Source: Sulfurimonas sp.
GTDB lineage: Bacteria; Campylobacterota; Campylobacteria; Campylobacterales; Sulfurimonadaceae
Reading direction: 5' to 3'
Assembly: GCF_028714975.1 (NCBI RefSeq)
Contig: NZ_JAQTLH010000002.1
Location: 1 to 64,000 of the forward strand
DNA: 64,000 bases
Each line of letters starts with the position of its first letter. Position 1 is the first letter of the stretch. The notes below the pieces were generated by a model. That model searched no databases, had not been told where the DNA came from, and saw only the letters and a program-made list of their open reading frames with translations. Shown here in pieces: positions 40,633 through 52,470 of this stretch. The translations under genes were made by a program, and so were the position numbers.

Positions 40633-41880
40633 CTACTTTCTTCCGTGAACTGCATTTCCCATATCCCACATAGGCAAGAAAATACCAAGAGCAAGTAAAA
40701 GAACCATAGAAGCAAGAATAAGCAACATAATAGGTTCAATCGCCTCTGCGAGCCCCTCAATAATTGCATCAAATCTCATTTTGTAGTACTCGGCAACTTT
40801 GCCTACCATGGTATCTAGTGTACCGCTATCCTCACCTGCACTAATCATTTGAATAATCATATTTTCAAATAGCCCCGTCTCTTGTAAGCCCTCATGTAAA
40901 GATGAACCTTTTTCAACAGCCATTCTTACAGAAGAGAGTCTCATTTTTAGGGGAAGACTATCTATCATCGAGATTGAAGTATCAAGTGCCTCTGCAATCG
41001 GAATTCCTGCTTTAATAAGCTCAGAAAATACAAGTGTAAAACGACTAAGTGTAGCAAACATAATAATATTTTTAATAAGATATGTTTTTAATAAAACTTG
41101 ATGCCATCCATATCTAATGTCTTTATAGTTATTTATCAGATACTTAAAGATTGAAAATGATATAACTAAAACAGCGAGTACATACAATCCGTAATTATTA
41201 AATAGATGCTCTAATTTTAATAAAATTTGTGTTGGCAATGGCAGCTCAGCATGAAGTTCTTCAAAAATTGTCTTAAATTGAGGAACAACATAAGATATTA
41301 GAACAGTAAAAGCAATAGCCATAGCTATCATAACATTTCTCGGATATGCCATTGCTTTTTTAAACTTAACAACATTTGCACGAATTTCTTCAAGCATATC
41401 GGCAAGAGAGTAGAGCGCATCATCCAAATTACCGGTTTTTTCACCGAGTTGCACCATTGCAATTGCTAAATTGCCTAATTCAAAACGGAAATTTTCCATA
41501 GATTTTGAGAGGGAGTGTCCAGAGTTAATATCTTCTGCCAGTTTGCCAAAAACTAGTTTTAAATTTTCATCAGTAGTAGATTTTGCAATTTCGTTTAGCG
41601 AATCATAAATTGAAATACCGGCATTCGTCATAACGGCTAGCTGTCTAATAGAAGCTATAAGAGCATCCGGTTTTATCTTTCTTTTTTTAACATTGCTAAG
41701 CAAATCTACTTTAAATCTCCTCCACCTTGCCTCTAGCGGTTCTTCTCCCTCCGCAATTTTAATTATTATTCCCGAATGTTTTAGTTTCATAAGCTCATTG
41801 GCTTGTTTTCTATCATCGGCATATATCCCAACTTCTTCTTTTTTACCTTTAGAAAGTATAGTTGCTATAAAGTATTTCAT
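40633..41880 (-). CDS. mshG: Pilus inner-membrane platform protein (GspF/MshG type)
   Basis: The 415-residue protein has two GspF domains, each with an AxxIRQLAVMTNAGISIYDSL-like helix pair (second: FSELIKAGIPIAEALDTS), and membrane helices near residues 180, 230 and at the C-terminus (IMLLILASMVLLLALGIFLPMW). It forms the base of type IV pilus or type II secretion machines, working with the ATPase encoded just before it. It is the last gene of the locus. The mshG symbol rests on gene order. Confidence 0.87.
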   Translation of the reverse strand: MKYFIATILSKGKKEEVGIYADDRKQANELMKLKHSGIIIKIAEGEEPLEARWRRFKVDLLSNVKKRKIKPDALIASIRQLAVMTNAGISIYDSLNEIAKSTTDENLKLVFGKLAEDINSGHSLSKSMENFRFELGNLAIAMVQLGEKTGNLDDALYSLADMLEEIRANVVKFKKAMAYPRNVMIAMAIAFTVLISYVVPQFKTIFEELHAELPLPTQILLKLEHLFNNYGLYVLAVLVISFSIFKYLINNYKDIRYGWHQVLLKTYLIKNIIMFATLSRFTLVFSELIKAGIPIAEALDTSISMIDSLPLKMRLSSVRMAVEKGSSLHEGLQETGLFENMIIQMISAGEDSGTLDTMVGKVAEYYKMRFDAIIEGLAEAIEPIMLLILASMVLLLALGIFLPMWDMGNAVHGRK

Positions 41881-43613
41881 TATTTTGCCACCCTTAAAAT
41901 TTCTTCTAAACTTGTAATGCCGGCAAGAGCTTTGCTGATACCGTTTTCAAAGATTCCTACAAATCCATCTTCAATCGCCTGAGCATGTAGAGCTTGAACC
42001 GATGCATTTTTTGCAATTAGAGATGATATTTTTTCATTTACAACTAAAACTTCACAAATCATCTCTCTGCCCATATATCCGGTCTCATTACACTCTTTGC
42101 ATCCTTTCCCAATATAAAATTTACTATCCTGAGGAACTAAATGTTTTAGCTCTTCAAGTGAAGAAATAGAAATTTTTTCCTCCGTTTTGCAATGTAAGCA
42201 AATCTTTCTAACAAGTCTTTGAGCTTGTATAGCAACTAAAGAACCGCTAATAAGATATGGAGCGACCCCCATATCTACCATACGAGTAACGGCGCTAATT
42301 GAGTCGTTTGTATGTAGCGTCGATATTACTAAGTGACCAGTTAGTGCGGCCTTTACTGCTATTTCCAGCGTTTCTGAATCACGAATTTCACCGATCATTA
42401 TTTTATCAGGATCTTGTCTTAAAATAGATCTAAGTGCAGCAGCAAAAGTTAATCCGACTTTCGGATTTACTTGTACTTGTTGAATAAGATTCATTCTATA
42501 TTCTACAGGATCTTCAACCGTAATAACCTTGTCTTCAACATTTCTAAGTTCATTTAAAGCACCGTAGAGCGTTGTTGTTTTACCGCTTCCAGTAGGACCG
42601 GTAACTAGTATGATACCGTAAGGAGTTTTAAGCGCCTTTAAAAATTTTTGATAACTCACGCTATCCATTCCAGCATCTTCAAGTTTAACAAGCGCTTTTT
42701 GTTTATCAAGCACCCTCATAACGACAGATTCGCCGTATAAGATCGGAAGCGTAGATATACGAAAATCAAACTCTTTAGAACCGACCAATGTCGAAAAACG
42801 CCCATCTTGAGGCTTTCTTTTCTCGGCGATATCAAGATTTGCAAGAAGTTTAAGCCTAGAAGCAAGCGGGGGATAAATATCTTTTTCAAAGATGAATATC
42901 TCAATAAGTTTTCCGTCAATACGAGTTCGAACAACACAATTTTTCTCTGTCGGTTCGATGTGAACATCGCTAGCACGGGCTTTAATGCAGGCATTTAAAA
43001 TAACATCAATTAAAAGCAGGATAGAAGAAGCTTCTTGTTGTTCTTCTATTGAATTGATAGAGTTTAGCTCATCTCTGATTTTTTTTACTAAACCTTTTAC
43101 GCTATCTTTTAGTTCTACTTTAAATAGATATGATTCAATCTGTTTTTTTGTTGCTACTGCTATTTTTATCGGTTTTTTTGGAAAAAGCCTTTGTACGGAC
43201 TCTTGGGCTTCAATGTTTAGCGGATCGCAAAAAGCTACGGTAATACTTAACTCATCTTCAGATATTGGCAGGGCATTATATTTTTTTAGTTGAACAAGCG
43301 ATACTTTTTCCGTAAGTCTATAGTCCATATCTATCGAATCTAAGTCAAGGAATGGAACATTTTGTTTTTGAGCTAATTTTAAGAGTACATCTTTTTCTTG
43401 GATATAGTCATAATTATTAATTATAGATAAATCATATTCACCGCTTTGTATTTTATCGACAATGAAGCGCACAAGTCTGTCCATTGTCATAAATCCGGAT
43501 ATGGTTATATCTCTTAGAATTAGATTTGTATCAAGACCTTTAGCAATTAATCTATCAACTTGACTCTTCATTATAGAGCCGTTTGCTAGTAAATCCGATG
43601 TTATCCTATCCAT
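41880..43613 (-). CDS. mshE: Pilus assembly ATPase (GspE/PilB/MshE type)
   Basis: The 577-residue hexameric ATPase has an N-terminal MshEN-like region, Walker A GPTGSGKTTTLYGAL, the aspartate box TVEDPVEYRM, Walker B MIGEIRDSETLEIA, the His box VISTLHTNDS and a zinc site of four cysteines (CLHC, CKEC). It powers pilin assembly at the platform protein. Stop and start of the neighbours touch (41880), so mshE and mshG are coupled. Confidence 0.92.
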   Translation of the reverse strand: MDRITSDLLANGSIMKSQVDRLIAKGLDTNLILRDITISGFMTMDRLVRFIVDKIQSGEYDLSIINNYDYIQEKDVLLKLAQKQNVPFLDLDSIDMDYRLTEKVSLVQLKKYNALPISEDELSITVAFCDPLNIEAQESVQRLFPKKPIKIAVATKKQIESYLFKVELKDSVKGLVKKIRDELNSINSIEEQQEASSILLLIDVILNACIKARASDVHIEPTEKNCVVRTRIDGKLIEIFIFEKDIYPPLASRLKLLANLDIAEKRKPQDGRFSTLVGSKEFDFRISTLPILYGESVVMRVLDKQKALVKLEDAGMDSVSYQKFLKALKTPYGIILVTGPTGSGKTTTLYGALNELRNVEDKVITVEDPVEYRMNLIQQVQVNPKVGLTFAAALRSILRQDPDKIMIGEIRDSETLEIAVKAALTGHLVISTLHTNDSISAVTRMVDMGVAPYLISGSLVAIQAQRLVRKICLHCKTEEKISISSLEELKHLVPQDSKFYIGKGCKECNETGYMGREMICEVLVVNEKISSLIAKNASVQALHAQAIEDGFVGIFENGISKALAGITSLEEILRVAK

Positions 43614-43621
43614 AATGTTTC

Positions 43622-44164
43622 CTACCAGTAAACATGTTTTTTAATGCTTACCGAATTATAAAATTCTTCGATAATCATTTTATCAATTTTATCATCTTTT
43701 ATAAGATAAAGTTTATATTTTAGTTTATTATCGTTTTTATCTTCAAAAATATAGAAATCTTTTCGCTCCCCTTTTTTAAGCTTAGAATAGAGATCAAAAA
43801 CTTTTGATAAAACATAATCCGTAGTCGGAAAATTTAAGGAGGATATATCATAATTATCCATTAGGGCGTGATATAGAAGTTTTTTTTGCATAAGTATAAT
43901 AGAAAAATATGAAGCATTTGAGCGTGCTTCTTGTGAAAATTTCAACGTCGTAATCGGTACGGATAAACGATCTATGTGATCAACATTTAAACAGGAGAAT
44001 GCATATAAAGATACATACTCTTCATCCTTTGAATAAGCAATAAAATTTTTAAAACCAAGTTCGCAGACATTTTCATACTCTTTTTTTTGGTAAAAATCAA
44101 GCATCTCCTGCTTTATATCTGCATATAAACTGATTGCAATTAGCGCTGCTAATAATATTTTCAT
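43622..44164 (-). CDS. Exported protein of unknown function in the pilus locus
   Basis: The 180-residue protein has a signal peptide (KILLAALIAISLYA) and a mainly helical mature part that starts DFYQKKEYENVCELGFKNF, like a single TPR-type helical hairpin. It is not recognised. It lies where MSHA loci have no gene of this kind, between the mshN-like and mshE-like genes, with a 4-base overlap upstream. It may be a lineage-specific periplasmic part. Confidence 0.6.
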   Translation of the reverse strand: MKILLAALIAISLYADIKQEMLDFYQKKEYENVCELGFKNFIAYSKDEEYVSLYAFSCLNVDHIDRLSVPITTLKFSQEARSNASYFSIILMQKKLLYHALMDNYDISSLNFPTTDYVLSKVFDLYSKLKKGERKDFYIFEDKNDNKLKYKLYLIKDDKIDKMIIEEFYNSVSIKKHVYW

Positions 44165-45111
44165 TTAAATTTTCCTAATTGAATCTCATCAAGTAACTGT
44201 TTTGCTTGCGAAGATTGTGAATGACTGATATACTTTTTAAGAGTTTCTACTGCCATATCTTTTTTGTTCATTTTTACAAGTGATTTTGAAAATATAATCC
44301 AACTCTCTTCCATATTATTATTTATTTCATTTGTTGTTAAAGCATAATTGTAAGCTTTTTCGTATTCACCTAATTGATAATATCTTTTAGCGACAAAAAG
44401 GCTCAAGGCAGGGTTGTGATTGACATTAAATCTTTTTATAACGTCTTTAATATCATCTTCATCATTATTTTTTCTTTTTATATCAATACTATTTTTATTA
44501 TCCGCTTTTGATACGGGTTCTAAACGTTCTTCTACTATTGTTGGCGGTGCAGGTACTACTACTTCTCGCTTATTTTGCGGCTGCACGGAAGTTTTTTTTA
44601 CCTCTTGCACTACAACAGGTACTACTTCTTCTTGTTTTTTCTGAGCTTCTTGAATACTTTTTTTTACCTCTTTAGGTGGAGGTGTTTGTGACTTTATATT
44701 ATTTATAAAATTCAGTGATGGAGAAAGTACAACTTTTTCTTCTGCTTTTTCTTCCGTTGGCGTAGTTTTGATATCTTCTTTAACAGCAGGTTCCTGCTTT
44801 GCTACTGTTTGTTGAGGTGTTGCAATATTCTTAGCAGCAGAATCTTGAGACGCTGCTAAAACATCATCTTTTTTAGCCATATCATTTTGAGGTGTTGGCT
44901 TTTCGATTTGTGGTACGGATTTTACAGTGCTTTCTTGTGTAATCAGTTGCTGTTGCGGCTGATGTTCAATTTTAGAATCAAAATCGTATAAAACAAAAAA
45001 AGCGATAGAAGCTGTAACAACTAGTGTACTTGCAGATATAGCAATATATGGTATTAATAACTTCTGTTTGTATTTTTTATGCCTAGTCTCTAAATCATAA
45101 ATATCAAGCAT
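44161..45111 (-). CDS. Membrane-anchored TPR protein (MshN-like)
   Basis: The 316-residue protein has one membrane helix near residues 19-42 (IPYIAISASTLVVTASIAFFVLYDF), a long Pro/Lys/Glu/Gln linker of about 150 residues and a C-terminal TPR region (FVAKRYYQLGEYEKAYNYAL; KMNKKDMAVETLKKYIS). MshN of the MSHA locus has the same layout and the same position. The linker would reach across the periplasm. It overlaps the AAA gene by 8 bases. Confidence 0.72.
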   Translation of the reverse strand: MLDIYDLETRHKKYKQKLLIPYIAISASTLVVTASIAFFVLYDFDSKIEHQPQQQLITQESTVKSVPQIEKPTPQNDMAKKDDVLAASQDSAAKNIATPQQTVAKQEPAVKEDIKTTPTEEKAEEKVVLSPSLNFINNIKSQTPPPKEVKKSIQEAQKKQEEVVPVVVQEVKKTSVQPQNKREVVVPAPPTIVEERLEPVSKADNKNSIDIKRKNNDEDDIKDVIKRFNVNHNPALSLFVAKRYYQLGEYEKAYNYALTTNEINNNMEESWIIFSKSLVKMNKKDMAVETLKKYISHSQSSQAKQLLDEIQLGKFK

Positions 45112-45919
45112 TGATTAATCCTGTGTGAATTGCGGACATCTCTATAATTGTAGTTGAAATTTCGCTTCCTTTTATTTTGATTGGATTGTTTTCTTCGTAG
45201 TGCATATATATATCAAATAGTGAATACAGCAACTTGTTTGTGTTTCTGTAGTTCCCGTTTGTCAGTTTATGAATTAGATTTACTGATTTTTGAGTAAACA
45301 TATTTGCGGTATCCAAGCAGTTTGCCTTCATCAGTTTTTTTTGAATATATATTTTTAGCTCTGAAGTTGAAGCATTGTCTAGTTTTATGCTTTCCCAAAT
45401 TCTAGTTTGAAAATGTTCTTTTGCAATCAAGTCTTCTTTTTCTGTTTTATGAAGAGCAATTACAAATTTCACCTTTCTCGTATCTGAAAGGAGTCTAATC
45501 TTTTCCATCATTGTGGTAGAGTAGAGTTGTGCTTCATCCAAAAGTATAAGTGGAGTTGCCATCTCACCAAGTTCCGTATTTTCTACTACTTTCATAAATT
45601 GCGTAAAATTCAACTCACTATCGTATTTCATATTGTATAAATCTTGAGCGAGTGTTTTGAAAAATTCACTTTCGTCCAATATGGGTGTTTTATATAAATA
45701 AGCTTTTTGGGTAGATATAAGAGTCTGGTGCAATTTTGATAAAAACATGCTCTTACCCGTACCCGGCTTACCGTACAAGAGTATCATCTTTAGCGGCTTT
45801 TCAATCGAATTTTTCAAAGATTGATAGATGCTAGATACTCTTTCAAGCTGTATGTAATCATTAGCGTTTACGGTATCTAAAAAAACATCCCTTGAGTTTT
45901 CATAGATACTCGGTTTCAA
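45104..45919 (-). CDS. ExeA/MshM-type AAA ATPase
   Basis: The 271-residue ATPase has Walker A LLYGKPGTGKSMFLSKL, Walker B TPLILLDEAQLYS and the sensor region KFVIALHKTEKED. It lacks the C-terminal peptidoglycan-binding domain of full-length GspA/ExeA, as MshM does. In related systems it helps secretin assembly or placement. It overlaps the secretin gene by 4 bases. Confidence 0.82.
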   Translation of the reverse strand: MKPSIYENSRDVFLDTVNANDYIQLERVSSIYQSLKNSIEKPLKMILLYGKPGTGKSMFLSKLHQTLISTQKAYLYKTPILDESEFFKTLAQDLYNMKYDSELNFTQFMKVVENTELGEMATPLILLDEAQLYSTTMMEKIRLLSDTRKVKFVIALHKTEKEDLIAKEHFQTRIWESIKLDNASTSELKIYIQKKLMKANCLDTANMFTQKSVNLIHKLTNGNYRNTNKLLYSLFDIYMHYEENNPIKIKGSEISTTIIEMSAIHTGLINA

Positions 45920-47505
45920 TTTTCCTCTTTTTTGCTATCTGTAGTAATCATAATCGCATCTTTAGCATTAAGCATAACTTTTTCAGAAAGACCTTGATAA
46001 CCTAAATCTGATAAAGATAGGTCTTTTTTGTCTTTTCTAATAATGTGCGGTTCTATTACAATAACAAGCTCTTGAGTAATTTTTTGTTTATTCTCATATT
46101 TAAACAGATAGTTTAAAATAGGGATATCACCTAAAATAGGAACTTTATTTTTGTTTATATTATTACTTGTGTTAATTAATCCGCCTAAAATAATACGGTT
46201 TCCGTCTTTTACGGTTACAACAGACGATAGTTGGCGACGGCGAAGGTCAGGCGGCATAGTTCTATCTGCAGCTGCAACACTAGAAACATCTGATGTCGTT
46301 TCAGACAAAGAAGGGTTTATTTTTAGCGTAATGGTATTATCACCTGAAATTTCAGGAGTAATATCTAAAAGAACACCGGCAAAAACCGACTGAAGATCTT
46401 CACTTGTACTTTGCGTTCCGCTTGTTCCGGTTGCCAAAGTTTGTGTACTTATTATTTTATAAAAGTACTCCGTACCGGCAGTAATAAGCGCCGGTTGATT
46501 GTTTAATGTCAAAACTTTTGGATTTGAGATTGAAGTTACATCTCCTTGAGTTTTAAGAAATTTTATAACTTCGTTTAATTTCCCGCTAGCGCTCAGCTTT
46601 ATAAGGTGAGAGTTTTCAGCAGCTCCGCCGCCCGCGATTGCCGTCGTAATCTTATCATCTTTAAATTCTGATACATTTTTATGAAACAGCTTATCAATAC
46701 TCATATCTATATCTTGAAGTTTATATAGCTGAGACCAATCAACACCGGTAGTTTTACCGTCACTAAGAGTTACAGAGAGCAGTTGAACATCTATTAAAAC
46801 TTGAAGTTGTACTTTGTCTTGAAGTTTTTTAAGATATTGTTCAAATCTCTCCATCTGTTTAACTGTTGCCGTAACAGTGATAATACCGGCATTTTTATTT
46901 ATTATCGGAGCTTGTGCTTTGTATACATCTTGCGGTCTGTTTAAAACTTCTTGAAATTCCAAATCTAGCTGATGCCAAAATGCTACTTCATCTTTGCTGT
47001 CTATTTTCATGCCTGATTTACCTGCGGCTCCTCCGCCAAGCTCTTGAGAAGCAGTTGTAGTCGTTGTCGTTCCTGTTGTAGAAGTTGTTTTACCGGCTCC
47101 TTCTGAGGAGAGTGTTATGTTTGTCTTGGATTCACTTTTTCTTTGCGAAAGAATATAGTCAACATTAAACATTCTAGTTTCAAGATATGAGATTTTTAAA
47201 ATGTTGTTTTCAAGAGTGTATGCAAGATTATTCTCTTTTAAGATAAGGTGAAAAACTTCATCTACAGTTAAGTTGTTTAGATTTGTTTTATTCAAATTAC
47301 TGTTTAAGAACTCTTGAGCATCCGGATCGGTAACGATAATACTAAATTGACACACATCACTAAGTTGTTCTATGAAATCTATTATTTTAGTGTTTTTCGT
47401 TGAGCTAATGCTAAATAGTTCATAAGAACAATCGGCCGCAAAAGTATTGCTTGAAAGTAGAAACGCTAAAAGCGTTGAGTACATTGTTGTTTTTATAAGT
47501 TTCAT
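45916..47505 (-). CDS. mshL: Pilus secretin (MshL/PilQ type)
   Basis: The 529-residue protein has a signal peptide (LLAFLLSSNTFA), an N-terminal STN-like domain (CQFSIIVTDPDAQEF), a Ser/Thr/Gly-rich linker, an N1-like domain (VTATVKQMERFEQYL) and a C-terminal secretin domain with QELVIVIEPHII. It forms the outer-membrane ring through which the pilus passes. No lipobox is seen, so a separate pilotin may be used. It sits between the mshK-like and mshM-like genes. Confidence 0.9.
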   Translation of the reverse strand: MKLIKTTMYSTLLAFLLSSNTFAADCSYELFSISSTKNTKIIDFIEQLSDVCQFSIIVTDPDAQEFLNSNLNKTNLNNLTVDEVFHLILKENNLAYTLENNILKISYLETRMFNVDYILSQRKSESKTNITLSSEGAGKTTSTTGTTTTTTASQELGGGAAGKSGMKIDSKDEVAFWHQLDLEFQEVLNRPQDVYKAQAPIINKNAGIITVTATVKQMERFEQYLKKLQDKVQLQVLIDVQLLSVTLSDGKTTGVDWSQLYKLQDIDMSIDKLFHKNVSEFKDDKITTAIAGGGAAENSHLIKLSASGKLNEVIKFLKTQGDVTSISNPKVLTLNNQPALITAGTEYFYKIISTQTLATGTSGTQSTSEDLQSVFAGVLLDITPEISGDNTITLKINPSLSETTSDVSSVAAADRTMPPDLRRRQLSSVVTVKDGNRIILGGLINTSNNINKNKVPILGDIPILNYLFKYENKQKITQELVIVIEPHIIRKDKKDLSLSDLGYQGLSEKVMLNAKDAIMITTDSKKEEN

Positions 47506-47514
47506 GAATCTGCC

Positions 47515-47991
47515 CTACTTATTTTTGAATTTTAGAGTTGGTGTTTTACTATATGTTGATAAGATAAGCTCTTTATCACCTTTTTTTAGAGTTACGGTAG
47601 TTTTACTAATGTCAACTATCGTGTAACTGCTAACTTTATCACTTATTTTATACCAATTGCCGTCAATCATAGCCGAAGAATTAATGATTGTATTTAAGCT
47701 TAACTCATCTTTTTTGGTACCGCTTTTATCAGACTTGGAGGTATTGGAGTCGACACAAACCGGTTTTAAAGCGGGAGCTGCAATTTGCGGTGTAGCAGCA
47801 ACCGCTCCCTCTTTTTTGTCGGCTCTACTCTTTTGCAAGAAAATAAAAGGATCCTCAATATTTAAAATCTCCACGCCTTTTCTCGGCGGTTTAATTGCTT
47901 CTATTTGTTGATCAACCCACTCCAGCTCACTAACAGCCAAGAGAGTAGTGCTTAGAAAAAGTGCAACCAGCGTTATTAATGTTGTTTTCAT
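47515..47991 (-). CDS. Exported PilP/MshK-like protein
   Basis: I start at 47991, which gives a signal peptide (KTTLITLVALFLSTTLLA) and a TGATG-type 4-base overlap with the previous gene. The 158-residue protein has a linker, then a C-terminal SH3-like beta part (MIDGNWYKISDKVSSYTIVDISKTTVTLKKGDKEL) like the homology region of PilP or GspC. It would link the inner-membrane complex to the secretin. Its place before the secretin gene matches mshK. Confidence 0.72.
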   Translation of the reverse strand: MKTTLITLVALFLSTTLLAVSELEWVDQQIEAIKPPRKGVEILNIEDPFIFLQKSRADKKEGAVAATPQIAAPALKPVCVDSNTSKSDKSGTKKDELSLNTIINSSAMIDGNWYKISDKVSSYTIVDISKTTVTLKKGDKELILSTYSKTPTLKFKNK

Positions 47992-48629
47992 CGGTAAGTA
48001 ATCCCCCAAACTGAAATGTTAATATCACTGTTTAGCGCATTTTGTGCTTTTATACTAAAGTCATGTATATCAACAACTAATTCACTCTGTTCCAGAGAGT
48101 TTATAAACTTAACGGTATCTAAATAATTACCTTTGACTTCAAGAGAAATATCTAAAACATGACCAAAAGCAGAGCTGTTATTCTCCGAATAGCTATTTGC
48201 AAAGTTAATTATATGAATATCGTGTTTTTTTGCATTTATGGATATAGAGTTAAGATATGCTCCCCATGCTTTTTCATCATAGATAAGTGAAGATATCGTT
48301 TCTATTTTGTTCTTTATATAGCTGTTTTTATTTTTTTGAACTACCAATTCAGCCTCAAAAGCCTTAATCTCTTGATCTAGTTTAGCCACTTTTGCTTCAG
48401 TGTTTACATTTAAGTAAATTTTATCTTCATTTATCTTTGCAGTAATATCGGTAACTTTTTTTCTTGCGTCGTTAAACTCGTTAAGAGACAAGTTATAAAA
48501 CGGATAAGCTGCAGCAAAGAGAACTGCAGCCACCATGACATATATCATATAAATATCTTTTTGAGATTTTTCCTTAAAAAAATTATCGATTTTATGTAAG
48601 GTATTTTCTATCATCAGTTTGAAATTCAT
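47988..48629 (-). CDS. PilO/MshJ-like inner-membrane protein
   Basis: The 213-residue protein has one membrane helix near residues 27-46 (IYMIYVMVAAVLFAAAYPF), a coiled coil (INEDKIYLNVNTEAKVAKLDQEIKAFE is its core) and a C-terminal ferredoxin-like part (LEVKGNYLDTVKFINSLEQSELVVDIHDF) as in PilO and GspM. It overlaps the mshI-like gene by 4 bases and the mshK-like gene by 4 bases. Confidence 0.75.
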   Translation of the reverse strand: MNFKLMIENTLHKIDNFFKEKSQKDIYMIYVMVAAVLFAAAYPFYNLSLNEFNDARKKVTDITAKINEDKIYLNVNTEAKVAKLDQEIKAFEAELVVQKNKNSYIKNKIETISSLIYDEKAWGAYLNSISINAKKHDIHIINFANSYSENNSSAFGHVLDISLEVKGNYLDTVKFINSLEQSELVVDIHDFSIKAQNALNSDINISVWGITYR

Positions 48630-50173
48630 AATAGATTCACTTTCAACTCACCAAGGTATAGTTTCGTTTTCTCTTCATATGATATATCATCTATAGAGAA
48701 ATGAAACTTTCCTTCATAAGTTTTTGTAAGATATTTAATCATATCTGTGATTTTTTTATCATCAGATGATGCCAATTTTAGACTCAACTCTTTCTTTGTA
48801 CCACTTTTATTTGTCTTTTCTGCATATAAAGCTGATTCCAACTTTACATTGAATTTATTTAAATCTTTTGTAAGCATATGTATAAGATCTGCTTTCATCG
48901 GATAGTTAACTTTAACATCATGAATTTTTATAAGTGTATTTTTCTTTTCAACATACTCTTGTTCTTCATGTGCTACTAATTTTGAAACTCTATCTTTGTC
49001 TGCTTCTTTGCTTTTTAAGGTAGCTTCTCTTACTATTTTAGTGTTATGAAGAGTTCCATACTCATCTTCGAGAAGCTTGTATTGCAGTGATTGAGCATAT
49101 GTAAGTGTCCAATAAGAAACCGGGTATGCAAAAGCAAGCACAAGTGAAGCAACGGCAAGTAAGATGGCACGACCGCTCTCTCTCTTCGCAAATTCAGGTG
49201 GACGGTGATAAGTCGTAAAGTTACAATCATAACCGTCTTTTTCTAAAATAGTAGCATAGACGTGCATAAGAGAATGAAGATGATCGATATGATTCTCTTT
49301 GTTTTCAAATCCGTAATCAAAATCGAAACTTCTGCTTCTGATGCTTAGCTCTACTTCCGCCATTTCATCTAGTTTAGTTGTGGTATGAAGTTGAGAATCT
49401 ATAAATATACAATCTATCTTATCTATATTTAAAGCTCTTTTTACATATGTCAAAATATCATTGATATTTGCAAATATCTCTTTGTAGAGCTTGATTATGT
49501 GTGTTTTATAGTTGCTATCGGTAGTTTTTAAATCTTCGCGCGATAGAAAATTGATAAAATCTTCATATTCGACCATCTCACCGTATATTTCACAAAATCT
49601 CTCATGCATTTGCGGGAATGAATAATTTATAGACTTAGTATATATGAAGTTTTTTTCATTATAAATAGTAATAAAAGTGTCATTTTCCTGAAAATAGATG
49701 AAACAGTGAACACCGCTTTCTACTAAAATCTCTTTTGCGTAAAGTGATTTAAAAAGTAACGGCGAAGGTATGATGTAATCAATATATTTAACTTTTTCAA
49801 TTGCATTTTTAAAAGTATCATCAACCGTTAAAGGATCAATTATAAATATATGAAAATTTCTGTTGTCTTCATCGAATTTATTGAAAGTTTCAACAAATTG
49901 CATCTGATACATTATGGCCTGATCAAGTCCAAGTTCTTCATATGCTTTATTGTAAATAGCATCATATAAATCATCTTCTGGAATATTTTTACTTATAGCA
50001 ATATAGCTATTTATAAAACTTTTTGTATTCAGATAAGAGATTACATACTGCTCTTTAGAGTAGATTGGGGATGTTGTTTCATTTAAAAAATTTGAAACCG
50101 CATTTACATATGTGTTCTTGTATGGATTGATAGAAAGCACACTGGAGAAAGAGTGTTGTTCTTTTTTACTCAT
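48626..50173 (-). CDS. PilM-PilN-like fusion protein (MshI-like)
   Basis: The first 320 or so residues form a cytosolic part with alternating strands and helices that may be a diverged PilM-type actin-like fold. One membrane helix follows (ILLAVASLVLAFAYPVSYW near 338-356), then a coiled coil and a PilN-like end (VKLESALYAEKT, KLYLGELKVNLL). A fusion of PilM and PilN functions would explain the lack of separate genes. At 515 residues it is the largest inner-membrane component. It is the first msh-type gene, 11 bases after the Pgp1-like gene. Confidence 0.7.
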   Translation of the reverse strand: MSKKEQHSFSSVLSINPYKNTYVNAVSNFLNETTSPIYSKEQYVISYLNTKSFINSYIAISKNIPEDDLYDAIYNKAYEELGLDQAIMYQMQFVETFNKFDEDNRNFHIFIIDPLTVDDTFKNAIEKVKYIDYIIPSPLLFKSLYAKEILVESGVHCFIYFQENDTFITIYNEKNFIYTKSINYSFPQMHERFCEIYGEMVEYEDFINFLSREDLKTTDSNYKTHIIKLYKEIFANINDILTYVKRALNIDKIDCIFIDSQLHTTTKLDEMAEVELSIRSRSFDFDYGFENKENHIDHLHSLMHVYATILEKDGYDCNFTTYHRPPEFAKRESGRAILLAVASLVLAFAYPVSYWTLTYAQSLQYKLLEDEYGTLHNTKIVREATLKSKEADKDRVSKLVAHEEQEYVEKKNTLIKIHDVKVNYPMKADLIHMLTKDLNKFNVKLESALYAEKTNKSGTKKELSLKLASSDDKKITDMIKYLTKTYEGKFHFSIDDISYEEKTKLYLGELKVNLL

Positions 50174-50184
50174 TTTTCATAATC

Positions 50185-51489
50185 CTATCTAAAATGAATT
50201 TTGGACATAAAACAAAATTCATCATTTTTGTAAAACTCAACCCTGTAAACTTTGTCGTGAGTATCAATTGCGTATCTTTTGTCGAAATCTTTAAGCTTTA
50301 AGCTTATACCGCTTTCGTCAATAGAATCTTTTGCTTTAAACCCAATTACATTTACACGATAACCATCTCGCTTAACAATATTAAAATCGTCATTTACAAC
50401 AATATCTGAAGTTTTATTTAAAGAAACTTTATTTCCGTCAATAATAACATCAAATTTGTTTTGACTTTCACACAACTCTACCAATTCAAAGTATTGCGGA
50501 GTAAGTGAAGTGATTTTTTGGTTACCTACGTAAACAACAAAATTTTCACCCTCTTTAACAACGCTTCCCAGCGGATTAGAGAACTTAAATATATTACCCT
50601 TTGATTTTATCGGAATAAAGCTTAAAGATTTTTTTATATCAGTTAAATCGATAGATATATTGTCATTAATGGTTAAATTACCGTAATTTTTTAGTAATGC
50701 ATCTATATTTTCTTCGGTTAAATCAAATTTTCTTGAAAAAGATATATTCATTATATTCATAAATTCTTCAATTGCCAAAAGATGATAAAATACTTTTTGA
50801 GATAAGGAGGGCAGATTTTTACTGCTCTCTATTGCAAAAGCCGGTTTATTGTTAGTAACGGCAAAATATGTAAGCGAGAGTTGCATCGCTTCATCATCAA
50901 ATTTAGTATTAGTATTTTTTACATCGAAAGTATGATGCTCTTTGATTAGTTTTTTATTTATTCCATCTTTAACATTAAGAGCAATTTTGCTTAAATCACC
51001 AAACGGTTGGCTTTTGTTTAAGTCACATTGATCAATTACACATGTTTGACCCCAAGCATTTGCATTAAAAATACTTCCTTTATCTGTTTTTCTATAAAAT
51101 CCGTTTCCGTCATGCAGATTTAAAACTAAAGATACATTTTTTTGGAGAATTATTTTTTTGACCTCTTGGATAACCTCTTTATCTTTATCCTTATCCTCAA
51201 TAATAGAGAATTTTCTATTCATATCTCCATGAATACCTCTGGCATTTTTTTGGATACTCTCTTGATTTAGGTTCGGTACTATCCAGACATTTTTTGAATT
51301 TATCTTATAATGAGTTGCCAAAATTGAAGCGGAAAAGTACCCACCCGGTTCATCTCCGTGGATACCTCCAATAACAAGAAGTGTCGTATTTGAGTCACTG
51401 TTTTGTTTTTTAATTAATTGAACATCTGCATACAAAGAGATAAAAGAGATGCTCACTATAAAAAAAATTTTTATTAAAATCCGGTTCAC
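50185..51489 (-). CDS. pgp1: Periplasmic peptidoglycan carboxypeptidase, Pgp1/Csd4 type (M99)
   Basis: The 434-residue exported enzyme (start GTG, signal ILIKIFFIVSISFISLYA) matches the M99 DL-carboxypeptidase that trims muropeptide tripeptides to dipeptides and sets helical shape in Campylobacter and Helicobacter. Zinc and active-site motifs are present: GGIHGDEPGG near residue 41 and VLNLHDGNGFYRK near 123, with FAIESSKNLPS later. The length is near that of Csd4. The gene follows the Pgp2-like gene by 12 bases. Confidence 0.88.
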   Translation of the reverse strand: MNRILIKIFFIVSISFISLYADVQLIKKQNSDSNTTLLVIGGIHGDEPGGYFSASILATHYKINSKNVWIVPNLNQESIQKNARGIHGDMNRKFSIIEDKDKDKEVIQEVKKIILQKNVSLVLNLHDGNGFYRKTDKGSIFNANAWGQTCVIDQCDLNKSQPFGDLSKIALNVKDGINKKLIKEHHTFDVKNTNTKFDDEAMQLSLTYFAVTNNKPAFAIESSKNLPSLSQKVFYHLLAIEEFMNIMNISFSRKFDLTEENIDALLKNYGNLTINDNISIDLTDIKKSLSFIPIKSKGNIFKFSNPLGSVVKEGENFVVYVGNQKITSLTPQYFELVELCESQNKFDVIIDGNKVSLNKTSDIVVNDDFNIVKRDGYRVNVIGFKAKDSIDESGISLKLKDFDKRYAIDTHDKVYRVEFYKNDEFCFMSKIHFR

Positions 51490-51501
51490 AAAAAATACTT
51501 T

Positions 51502-52470
51502 TTATTTTTCTGTAAGAATACGAATCTTGTTACTTTTATCAAGTTCTACGATAAGTGTTTTATCGCCTTCAAATTTAAAGGTATCAGATTTATAAAACTC
51601 TTTAAAGTTAATTTGATAAATATTTGAAGTGTTAGGGTAGGGGAAAATATTTATATTATTAAAAACGATACTTTTTCTCTCATTCTTTTGAAAGATTCTA
51701 GCTTTATAGCTCTTAAAATCTTTGAAGTTCATCCCGTCATCTTTTACAAATTCATTTGAATAGAAGCTGAGATATCCGTTGATATCATCATATATCCAGT
51801 TATATCTCCATGCATATAGTTGTGCCAGTATAGTTGCTAATGCCTTTTTTGATACATCCTGCTTTACTTTTGTATCATTTATAATAAGTATAGTTTTTGA
51901 AATATCAATATTTCTATCCAAGCACTCGATACTTGAGTTATTAATCGCTATGCATCCTCTTGTAAAATCATCTCTTGATTGATTGGTTGGAAGTCCGTGG
52001 ATCCATATACCATCGCCGTCTCTGCCTCTGTAAGAGTCATAAAGATTTGGATAAGATGTTACAAATGCCAAGGGACCGTAAAACGAATCTAGCTTAGTAT
52101 TTTTAGAGAGTTTTTTAGTTATTTGATAAATTCCGATTGGAGTTTTTAAATCTCCCTCTTTTATTTTATCGCCTTTGTGTTTTCCGGTAAAAGCATCGTA
52201 TGCTTTTTTATGTTTAAAGTCCTTATTTTTATCAAGCGAGTAGAGATCAAGCTTTGATTTTGACTTATCGCATGTAAGAATATTTGAATATGCTTCAATA
52301 TAACCAAAAGTCGTATCTTTATTTTTTAAGATATCGTTCCAATACTCCTCTTTTGCCAACTCTTTGTCCATCTGCTTTTCAATATCTGCAATCCCGTTAA
52401 TCCTATAGTTTGTGAGAATATTATCTGCAAAAATATTTGTTAAAATAAGTAGTAGTAGTATATATTTCAT
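51502..52470 (-). CDS. pgp2: L,D-carboxypeptidase/transpeptidase-fold enzyme, Pgp2/Csd6 type
   Basis: The 322-residue exported protein has a YkuD domain in the middle: KEGDLKTPIGIYQIT, IWIHGLPTNQSRDDFTRGCIAINN with catalytic His and Cys, followed by an NTF2-like C-terminal part (YAWRYNWIYDDINGYLSFYS). This is the layout of Csd6/Pgp2, which trims tetrapeptides to tripeptides, the step before Pgp1. The gene overlaps era by 4 bases. Confidence 0.87.
   Translation of the reverse strand: MKYILLLLILTNIFADNILTNYRINGIADIEKQMDKELAKEEYWNDILKNKDTTFGYIEAYSNILTCDKSKSKLDLYSLDKNKDFKHKKAYDAFTGKHKGDKIKEGDLKTPIGIYQITKKLSKNTKLDSFYGPLAFVTSYPNLYDSYRGRDGDGIWIHGLPTNQSRDDFTRGCIAINNSSIECLDRNIDISKTILIINDTKVKQDVSKKALATILAQLYAWRYNWIYDDINGYLSFYSNEFVKDDGMNFKDFKSYKARIFQKNERKSIVFNNINIFPYPNTSNIYQINFKEFYKSDTFKFEGDKTLIVELDKSNKIRILTEK

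Follow-up and report, generated by a model that had tools for sequence, protein, structure and literature searches.

Natural transformation in Campylobacter jejuni requires the cts genes as well as Cj0683, a pilin-like protein that interacts with CtsE, is needed to start DNA uptake and has its gene just before priA (PMC10046745); the published order of the cts genes is ctsRDPXEF (PMC10893306). In a survey that covered the whole type IV filament superfamily, the systems of double-membrane bacteria with an experimental link to transformation were type IVa pili, and the word 'Campylobacter' is absent from its main text (PMC6668835). The mannose-sensitive haemagglutinin (MSHA) pilus of Vibrionaceae is encoded by the gene set mshIJKLMNEG-BACDOPQ, for which two Photobacterium loci (L216 and L217) served as references here. 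In the open-licence literature we found no paper linking Cts to the MSHA lineage at the level of the machine, and an earlier mention is possible. Here we describe a locus of nine genes within a 64,000-nucleotide stretch (contig C2:1-64000; hereafter the window) of a Sulfurimonas sp. genome of 2.06 Mb, 23 contigs and 99.4% completeness. The locus encodes a full-size MSHA-type machine which, in the reading that we favour, probably assembles a retractile DNA-uptake pilus from pilins encoded elsewhere in the genome.

The nine open reading frames (ORFs; 40633-50173) all lie on the minus strand, overlap or are separated by gaps of less than 12 bp, and follow the order I-J-K-L-M-N-x-E-G (letters denote positions in the msh gene set), as an original prediction made from the sequence alone had proposed. 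All nine ORFs are intact, and ratios of nonsynonymous to synonymous substitution (dN/dS) against a same-genus orthologue were 0.02-0.14 for all nine genes, rough values given that synonymous sites are saturated; all nine genes are under purifying selection. Together with the recurrence of the gene order in many genomes, these ratios argue that the block reflects neither chance nor decay. The same block, likewise without adjoining pilins, recurs in genomes of the same genus and across the order, and in many families it lies, as in the window, directly downstream of rplI-hslV-hslU-era, a shared site which points to the block having been inherited from the order's ancestor. The absence of pilins from the window could be taken to mean that this is a degenerate MSHA locus whose pilins are gone and which has stopped making a fibre; given the intact ORFs, the purifying selection, and the presence of pilins, a prepilin peptidase and PilT-like ATPases elsewhere in the genome, we consider this hardly credible.

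Family scans bore out the predicted domain layouts for J, L, M, N, E and G, as did a profile comparison for K, while I yielded sub-threshold hints only. The outer-membrane secretin L (mshL = ctsD; 45916..47505, 529 aa) scored 261.9 bits against the NCBIfam MshL equivalog TIGR02519, above the cut-off of 250.2, on a model that may have been built with Campylobacter secretins, which reach 331; it fell below the cut-offs of other secretin equivalogs (GspD, 163 vs 351; PilQ, 127 vs 284). The PilO-like protein J (mshJ; 47988..48629, 213 aa) matched Pfam PilO with 29.7 bits (cut-off 22), and MshJ was the sole Photobacterium match of its profile (hhalign 51%, E 1.6e-4). For the exported PilP-like protein K (mshK = ctsR; 47515..48009), the sequence alone gave no family match and the profile matched Photobacterium MshK (hhalign 91.3%); the start of K is probably the ATG at 47991 rather than the TTG at 48009, as the former yields a clean signal peptide. 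M (mshM = ctsP; 45104..45919), an ExeA-type AAA ATPase of 271 aa with a TTG start, matched AAA_22 (46.9 bits) and Photobacterium MshM (hhalign 98.3%). The pilus-extension ATPase E (mshE = ctsE; 41880..43613, 577 aa) matched T2SSE (437 bits) and MshEN (59.6 bits) and missed the equivalog cut-offs of both GspE (530 vs 630 bits) and PilB (525 vs 676 bits), and the inner-membrane platform G (mshG = ctsF; 40633..41880, 415 aa) matched T2SSF (175 bits) and missed that of GspF (264 vs 424). N (mshN position = ctsX; 44161..45111, 316 aa) consists of a single N-terminal transmembrane segment, a long linker and C-terminal tetratricopeptide repeats (TPR), the last recognized as an ANAPC3/TPR match. I (mshI position; 48626..50173), a 515-aa inner-membrane assembly protein with orthologues across the order, had no significant match in the family scans; sub-threshold profile hits to PilM at residues 165-276 (E 1.3) and to PilN at 328-401 (E 0.28), in the expected order, suggest that it is probably a PilM-PilN fusion. 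As hhalign detected no profile match of I to Photobacterium MshI or of N to Photobacterium MshN, the names of these two genes rest on position and architecture. The locus as a whole shows two traits of MSHA systems, an MshM ATPase and the order I-J-K-L-M-N-E-G.

Gene x (43622..44164) encodes an exported protein of 180 aa with two invariant cysteines (C34 and C58) and sits between N and E, i.e., between the homologues of ctsX and ctsE. The original prediction rightly placed an extra exported protein there; x is a conserved member of the lineage, present in most full loci and in L060 of the sister clade described below. It is missing from Campylobacter cts operons, and found no match in Pfam, NCBIfam or, by profile search, the PDB; a single-sequence structure prediction was uninformative (mean predicted local distance difference test score 48.7). 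Most likely, the protein acts in the periplasm as an accessory to N, L or E.

Phylogenetic trees of E alone and of concatenated E, G and L from 39 systems (support given as bootstrap/SH-like approximate likelihood ratio test) group the window locus, Cts, Campylobacterota MSHA loci and Photobacterium MSHA into one clade (100/100), with Photobacterium PilB-PilC-PilQ and five type II secretion systems falling outside this clade. The Campylobacterota systems form a single clade (100/100); the window-type loci and Campylobacter cts form a clade (100/98) that excludes ordinary MSHA loci and has L053, L055 and L060 as its sister (100/100), and Cts is nested among the full loci of its own family (99/99). 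Caveats of these trees are an uneven composition, long Cts branches and the small number of MSHA references, and the deepest placement of Thiomicrorhabdus and of a second pilus-like system on contig C9 of the window genome is weak. As judged from profiles and trees, the locus belongs to the MSHA lineage, apart from type IVa pili and type II secretion, in line with the type originally proposed. The same prediction had also allowed for a secretion system; a type II-like machine with pseudopilins encoded elsewhere would account for the partial resemblance of E and G to GspE and GspF, but the GspD, GspE and GspF cut-offs are all missed and the true type II loci of relatives branch apart, leaving this alternative without support and very improbable. 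Two families, f9 and f14 (possibly Arcobacteraceae and Helicobacteraceae; L083 and L082), have divergent E and G on long branches, and the genomes in which E found no match at E 1e-80 (6/150) all belong to one or the other; the machine may have been lost or replaced there.

In four genomes the block is accompanied by a second, classic MSHA locus (L053, L262, L263 and L055) in which Q-D-O-P-C and pilins adjoin the machine genes. Two of these genomes belong to the same genus (G011 and G141), a third to a different genus within the family (G057) and the fourth to a different family (G027). Rather than an MSHA locus from which the pilins have simply disappeared, the window locus represents a distinct, order-wide lineage; the lineage and gene order originally assigned to it stand, and to these are added its inclusion of Campylobacter Cts and an extension ATPase without the cyclic di-GMP (c-di-GMP) motif.

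The relation to Cts became apparent in a genus (g28) in which the block reads PFOR-K-L-M-N-E-G (PFOR, pyruvate:ferredoxin oxidoreductase), or a variant without M and with a short N. The order is that of ctsRDPXEF, gene lengths are close to those of the C. jejuni cts genes (PMC8308473), and the flanks resemble those listed for C. hepaticus, i.e., cadF, a haloacid dehalogenase (HAD) hydrolase and PFOR, in a genome where the secretin is annotated 'mshL' (PMC6371046); from order, lengths and flanks we infer that g28 is Campylobacter. The genes correspond as ctsR = K, ctsD = L, ctsP = M, ctsX = N, ctsE = E and ctsF = G, with hhalign values of 98.0% for ctsR vs K, 99.8% for ctsP vs M and 99.3% for ctsX vs N. 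Other genera of the Campylobacter family have either the full nine genes (L061, L085 and L086, the first two with one gene, N or a split G, that can be made out less clearly than the others) or I-J-K-L-E-G (L076-L078 and L084), and reduction is therefore visible stepwise within this family. In two Campylobacter g28 genomes, I and J were also sought away from the block, in 200 kb of each that did not include era, and were not found.

As predicted, the window holds no pilin or prepilin peptidase gene. A genome-wide search identified eight N-methyl pilin matches, all outside the window, and one prepilin peptidase (C6:107.6-108.4 kb), which makes the proposal that the pilins are encoded elsewhere both possible and likely. 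Three tandem pilins lie upstream of priA at C5:22.6-24.1 kb, flanked by flagellar basal-body genes and priA; two are part of a minor-pilin cluster that resembles MshQ-D-O-P (C5:74.2-79.1 kb), a single MshC-like pilin is at C1:349 kb, and two belong to the second type IV pilus (T4P)-like locus on C9. The canonical arrangement, with B-A-C-D-O-P-Q pilins adjoining the machine genes, is not seen here, Q-D-O-P being on another contig; the published model of the MSH filament allows a major pilin apart from the locus (PMC6668835), and candidate major pilins that would serve as substrates are present at C5:22.6-24.1 kb and at other sites. Two PilT-like ATPases are encoded on C12 and C7. The lone MshC-like pilin is preceded, at a distance of about 9 kb, by a gene for a 1132-aa S-layer/RTX-like repeat protein (L012:2052-5450).

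A DNA-uptake role is suggested by the pilins at priA. A pilin gene directly upstream of priA is present in the window genome and in 16/18 relatives checked. With its N-terminus removed, the priA-linked pilin was recognized in a set of 35, with E-values of 1e-9 to 1e-6, all the way from the genus of the window to Campylobacter, whereas scores of the other pilins were close to chance; this part of the protein forms a single orthologous family, and the pilin is the counterpart of Cj0683, the C. jejuni competence pilin. Furthermore, comEC and priA are separated by 3-6 kb in the window genome (5 kb) and in eight relatives of three families. Several observations weigh against a DNA-uptake pilus. ComEC is present in 26/26 genomes tested, so that its presence is weak evidence and only the linkage to priA is informative; the Q-D-O-P minor-pilin cluster, which is conserved, would also suit an adhesive pilus; the PilT-like ATPases, pilins and peptidase could also serve the T4P-like system on C9; and open-licence papers yielded no experiments in this organism or genus.

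The extension ATPases differ in the MshE c-di-GMP-binding N-terminal motif (NF053729, cut-off 38). This motif was matched by Photobacterium MshE (75.7), a Thiomicrorhabdus ATPase (61.9), the ATPases of the Campylobacterota MSHA loci L053, L262 and L263 (66.4, 60.5 and 59.4) and the ATPase of the C9 locus (L010; 45.3 bits). Seven ATPases of the window or Cts type were scanned, E of the window among them, and none matched it. Its absence suggests that c-di-GMP does not gate extension in this lineage, and the pilus should thus lack the c-di-GMP switch of Vibrio MSHA.

The strongest competing explanation is that the locus assembles an adhesive or surface-sensing MSHA-type pilus with no part in DNA uptake, the latter role having arisen only in Campylobacter. 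Such a pilus would agree with the placement in the MSHA lineage and with the distribution of the large MshQ-like protein, which is kept in the same-genus genomes examined (with D-O-P adjoining in the eight read out), is matched weakly in one full-locus genome from the Campylobacter family and was not found in the two Campylobacter g28 genomes tested. On the other hand, the pilins linked to priA and comEC are conserved to the same degree as the machine and are orthologues of the Campylobacter competence pilin, a pilus used in surface attachment would not be expected to lose the c-di-GMP motif, and in some relatives a true MSHA locus is kept separately for attachment; a purely adhesive pilus hence seems to us possible rather than probable. 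Since the MshQ-like minor-pilin set is conserved, some adhesive role has likely been retained alongside the proposed DNA uptake.

The MshQ-like protein that heads the minor-pilin cluster (L011:8183-11101; C5:76.2-79.1 kb) has 972 aa and a Calx-beta domain; among same-genus genomes its length varies from approx. 770 to 1,650 aa with a conserved C-terminal part, as expected of a variable tip adhesin. We rejected the idea that this cluster is a relic of a lost second MSHA locus because D, O and P are kept (~35-71% identity) in the same-genus genomes read and because genomes with the second locus contain both this cluster and a separate set that is more divergent. The T4P-like locus on C9 (11-21.5 kb) comprises PilM/N/O/P-like genes, a secretin, a TPR protein, an ATPase and a platform, as well as a response regulator, a kinase and a 621-aa pilin-like protein with cysteine-rich repeats. 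Between era and gene I, at 50185-52470 of the window, lie genes for an M14-like carboxypeptidase and an L,D-transpeptidase-like protein, a pair found at the same place in several same-genus genomes; the two possibly remodel the cell wall around the machine or act in cell shape.

In the DNA-uptake model, an MSHA-lineage type IV pilus would have been turned into a DNA-uptake pilus within Campylobacterota. The envelope-spanning machine would be composed of the secretin L, the periplasmic and inner-membrane alignment proteins I, J and K, the ATPase M, the TPR protein N, the exported protein x, the ATPase E and the platform G. Prepilins from the priA-comEC region (three), the minor Q-D-O-P cluster (C5:74-79 kb) and C1:349 kb (one) would be cut by the single prepilin peptidase, and the processed pilins polymerized by E on G and pushed out through L. 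One of the two PilT ATPases may then pull the DNA-bearing fibre into the periplasm, from where ComEC would take the DNA in. Campylobacter ctsRDPXEF would represent a reduced form whose operon or genome no longer has I, J and x or the minor-pilin cluster. A broader proposition, for which we consider the odds to be even, is that the machine which Campylobacterota use as standard for DNA uptake, Cts of C. jejuni included, is neither a type II secretion system nor a type IVa pilus but an MSHA-type pilus that has been domesticated, one that lost c-di-GMP gating of its extension ATPase, had its pilins moved to priA-comEC and was then stripped down stepwise in Campylobacteraceae, and that it constitutes a separate origin of Gram-negative competence pili.

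Should Cts belong to the MSHA lineage, competence pili would have evolved on at least one further occasion, from an adhesion pilus, and the change would be partly visible in the loss of the c-di-GMP motif, in the pilins beside priA-comEC and in the stepwise loss of genes. The full locus also provides candidates that are missing from C. jejuni studies, i.e., the alignment proteins I and J, the minor pilins, x and PilT, and it predicts natural transformation in many environmental Campylobacterota.

Compared with described systems, the window locus shares with Vibrionaceae MSHA the gene order I-J-K-L-M-N-E-G, homology of MshL, MshM, MshK and MshJ, and a locus without a prepilin peptidase; it differs in that its pilins do not adjoin the machine genes, in having x, in an ATPase without the MshE motif, and in an I and an N with no detectable similarity to Vibrionaceae MshI and MshN. 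The Campylobacterota MSHA loci (L053, L055, L262 and L263) have the same eight genes and, unlike the window, Q-D-O-P-C and two pilins next to I-G, another chromosomal site and no x. With C. jejuni Cts (ctsRDPXEF and Cj0683), the window locus shares K-L-M-N-E-G as R-D-P-X-E-F, both in order and by profile, and membership of the same clade, and the two genomes share a pilin gene directly before priA as well as comEC. The window additionally has I, J and x, its genome has three priA-linked pilins, a nearby comEC and the Q-D-O-P minor-pilin cluster, and the locus occupies the era-hslU-hslV-rplI site, in contrast to the PFOR site of Campylobacter cts.
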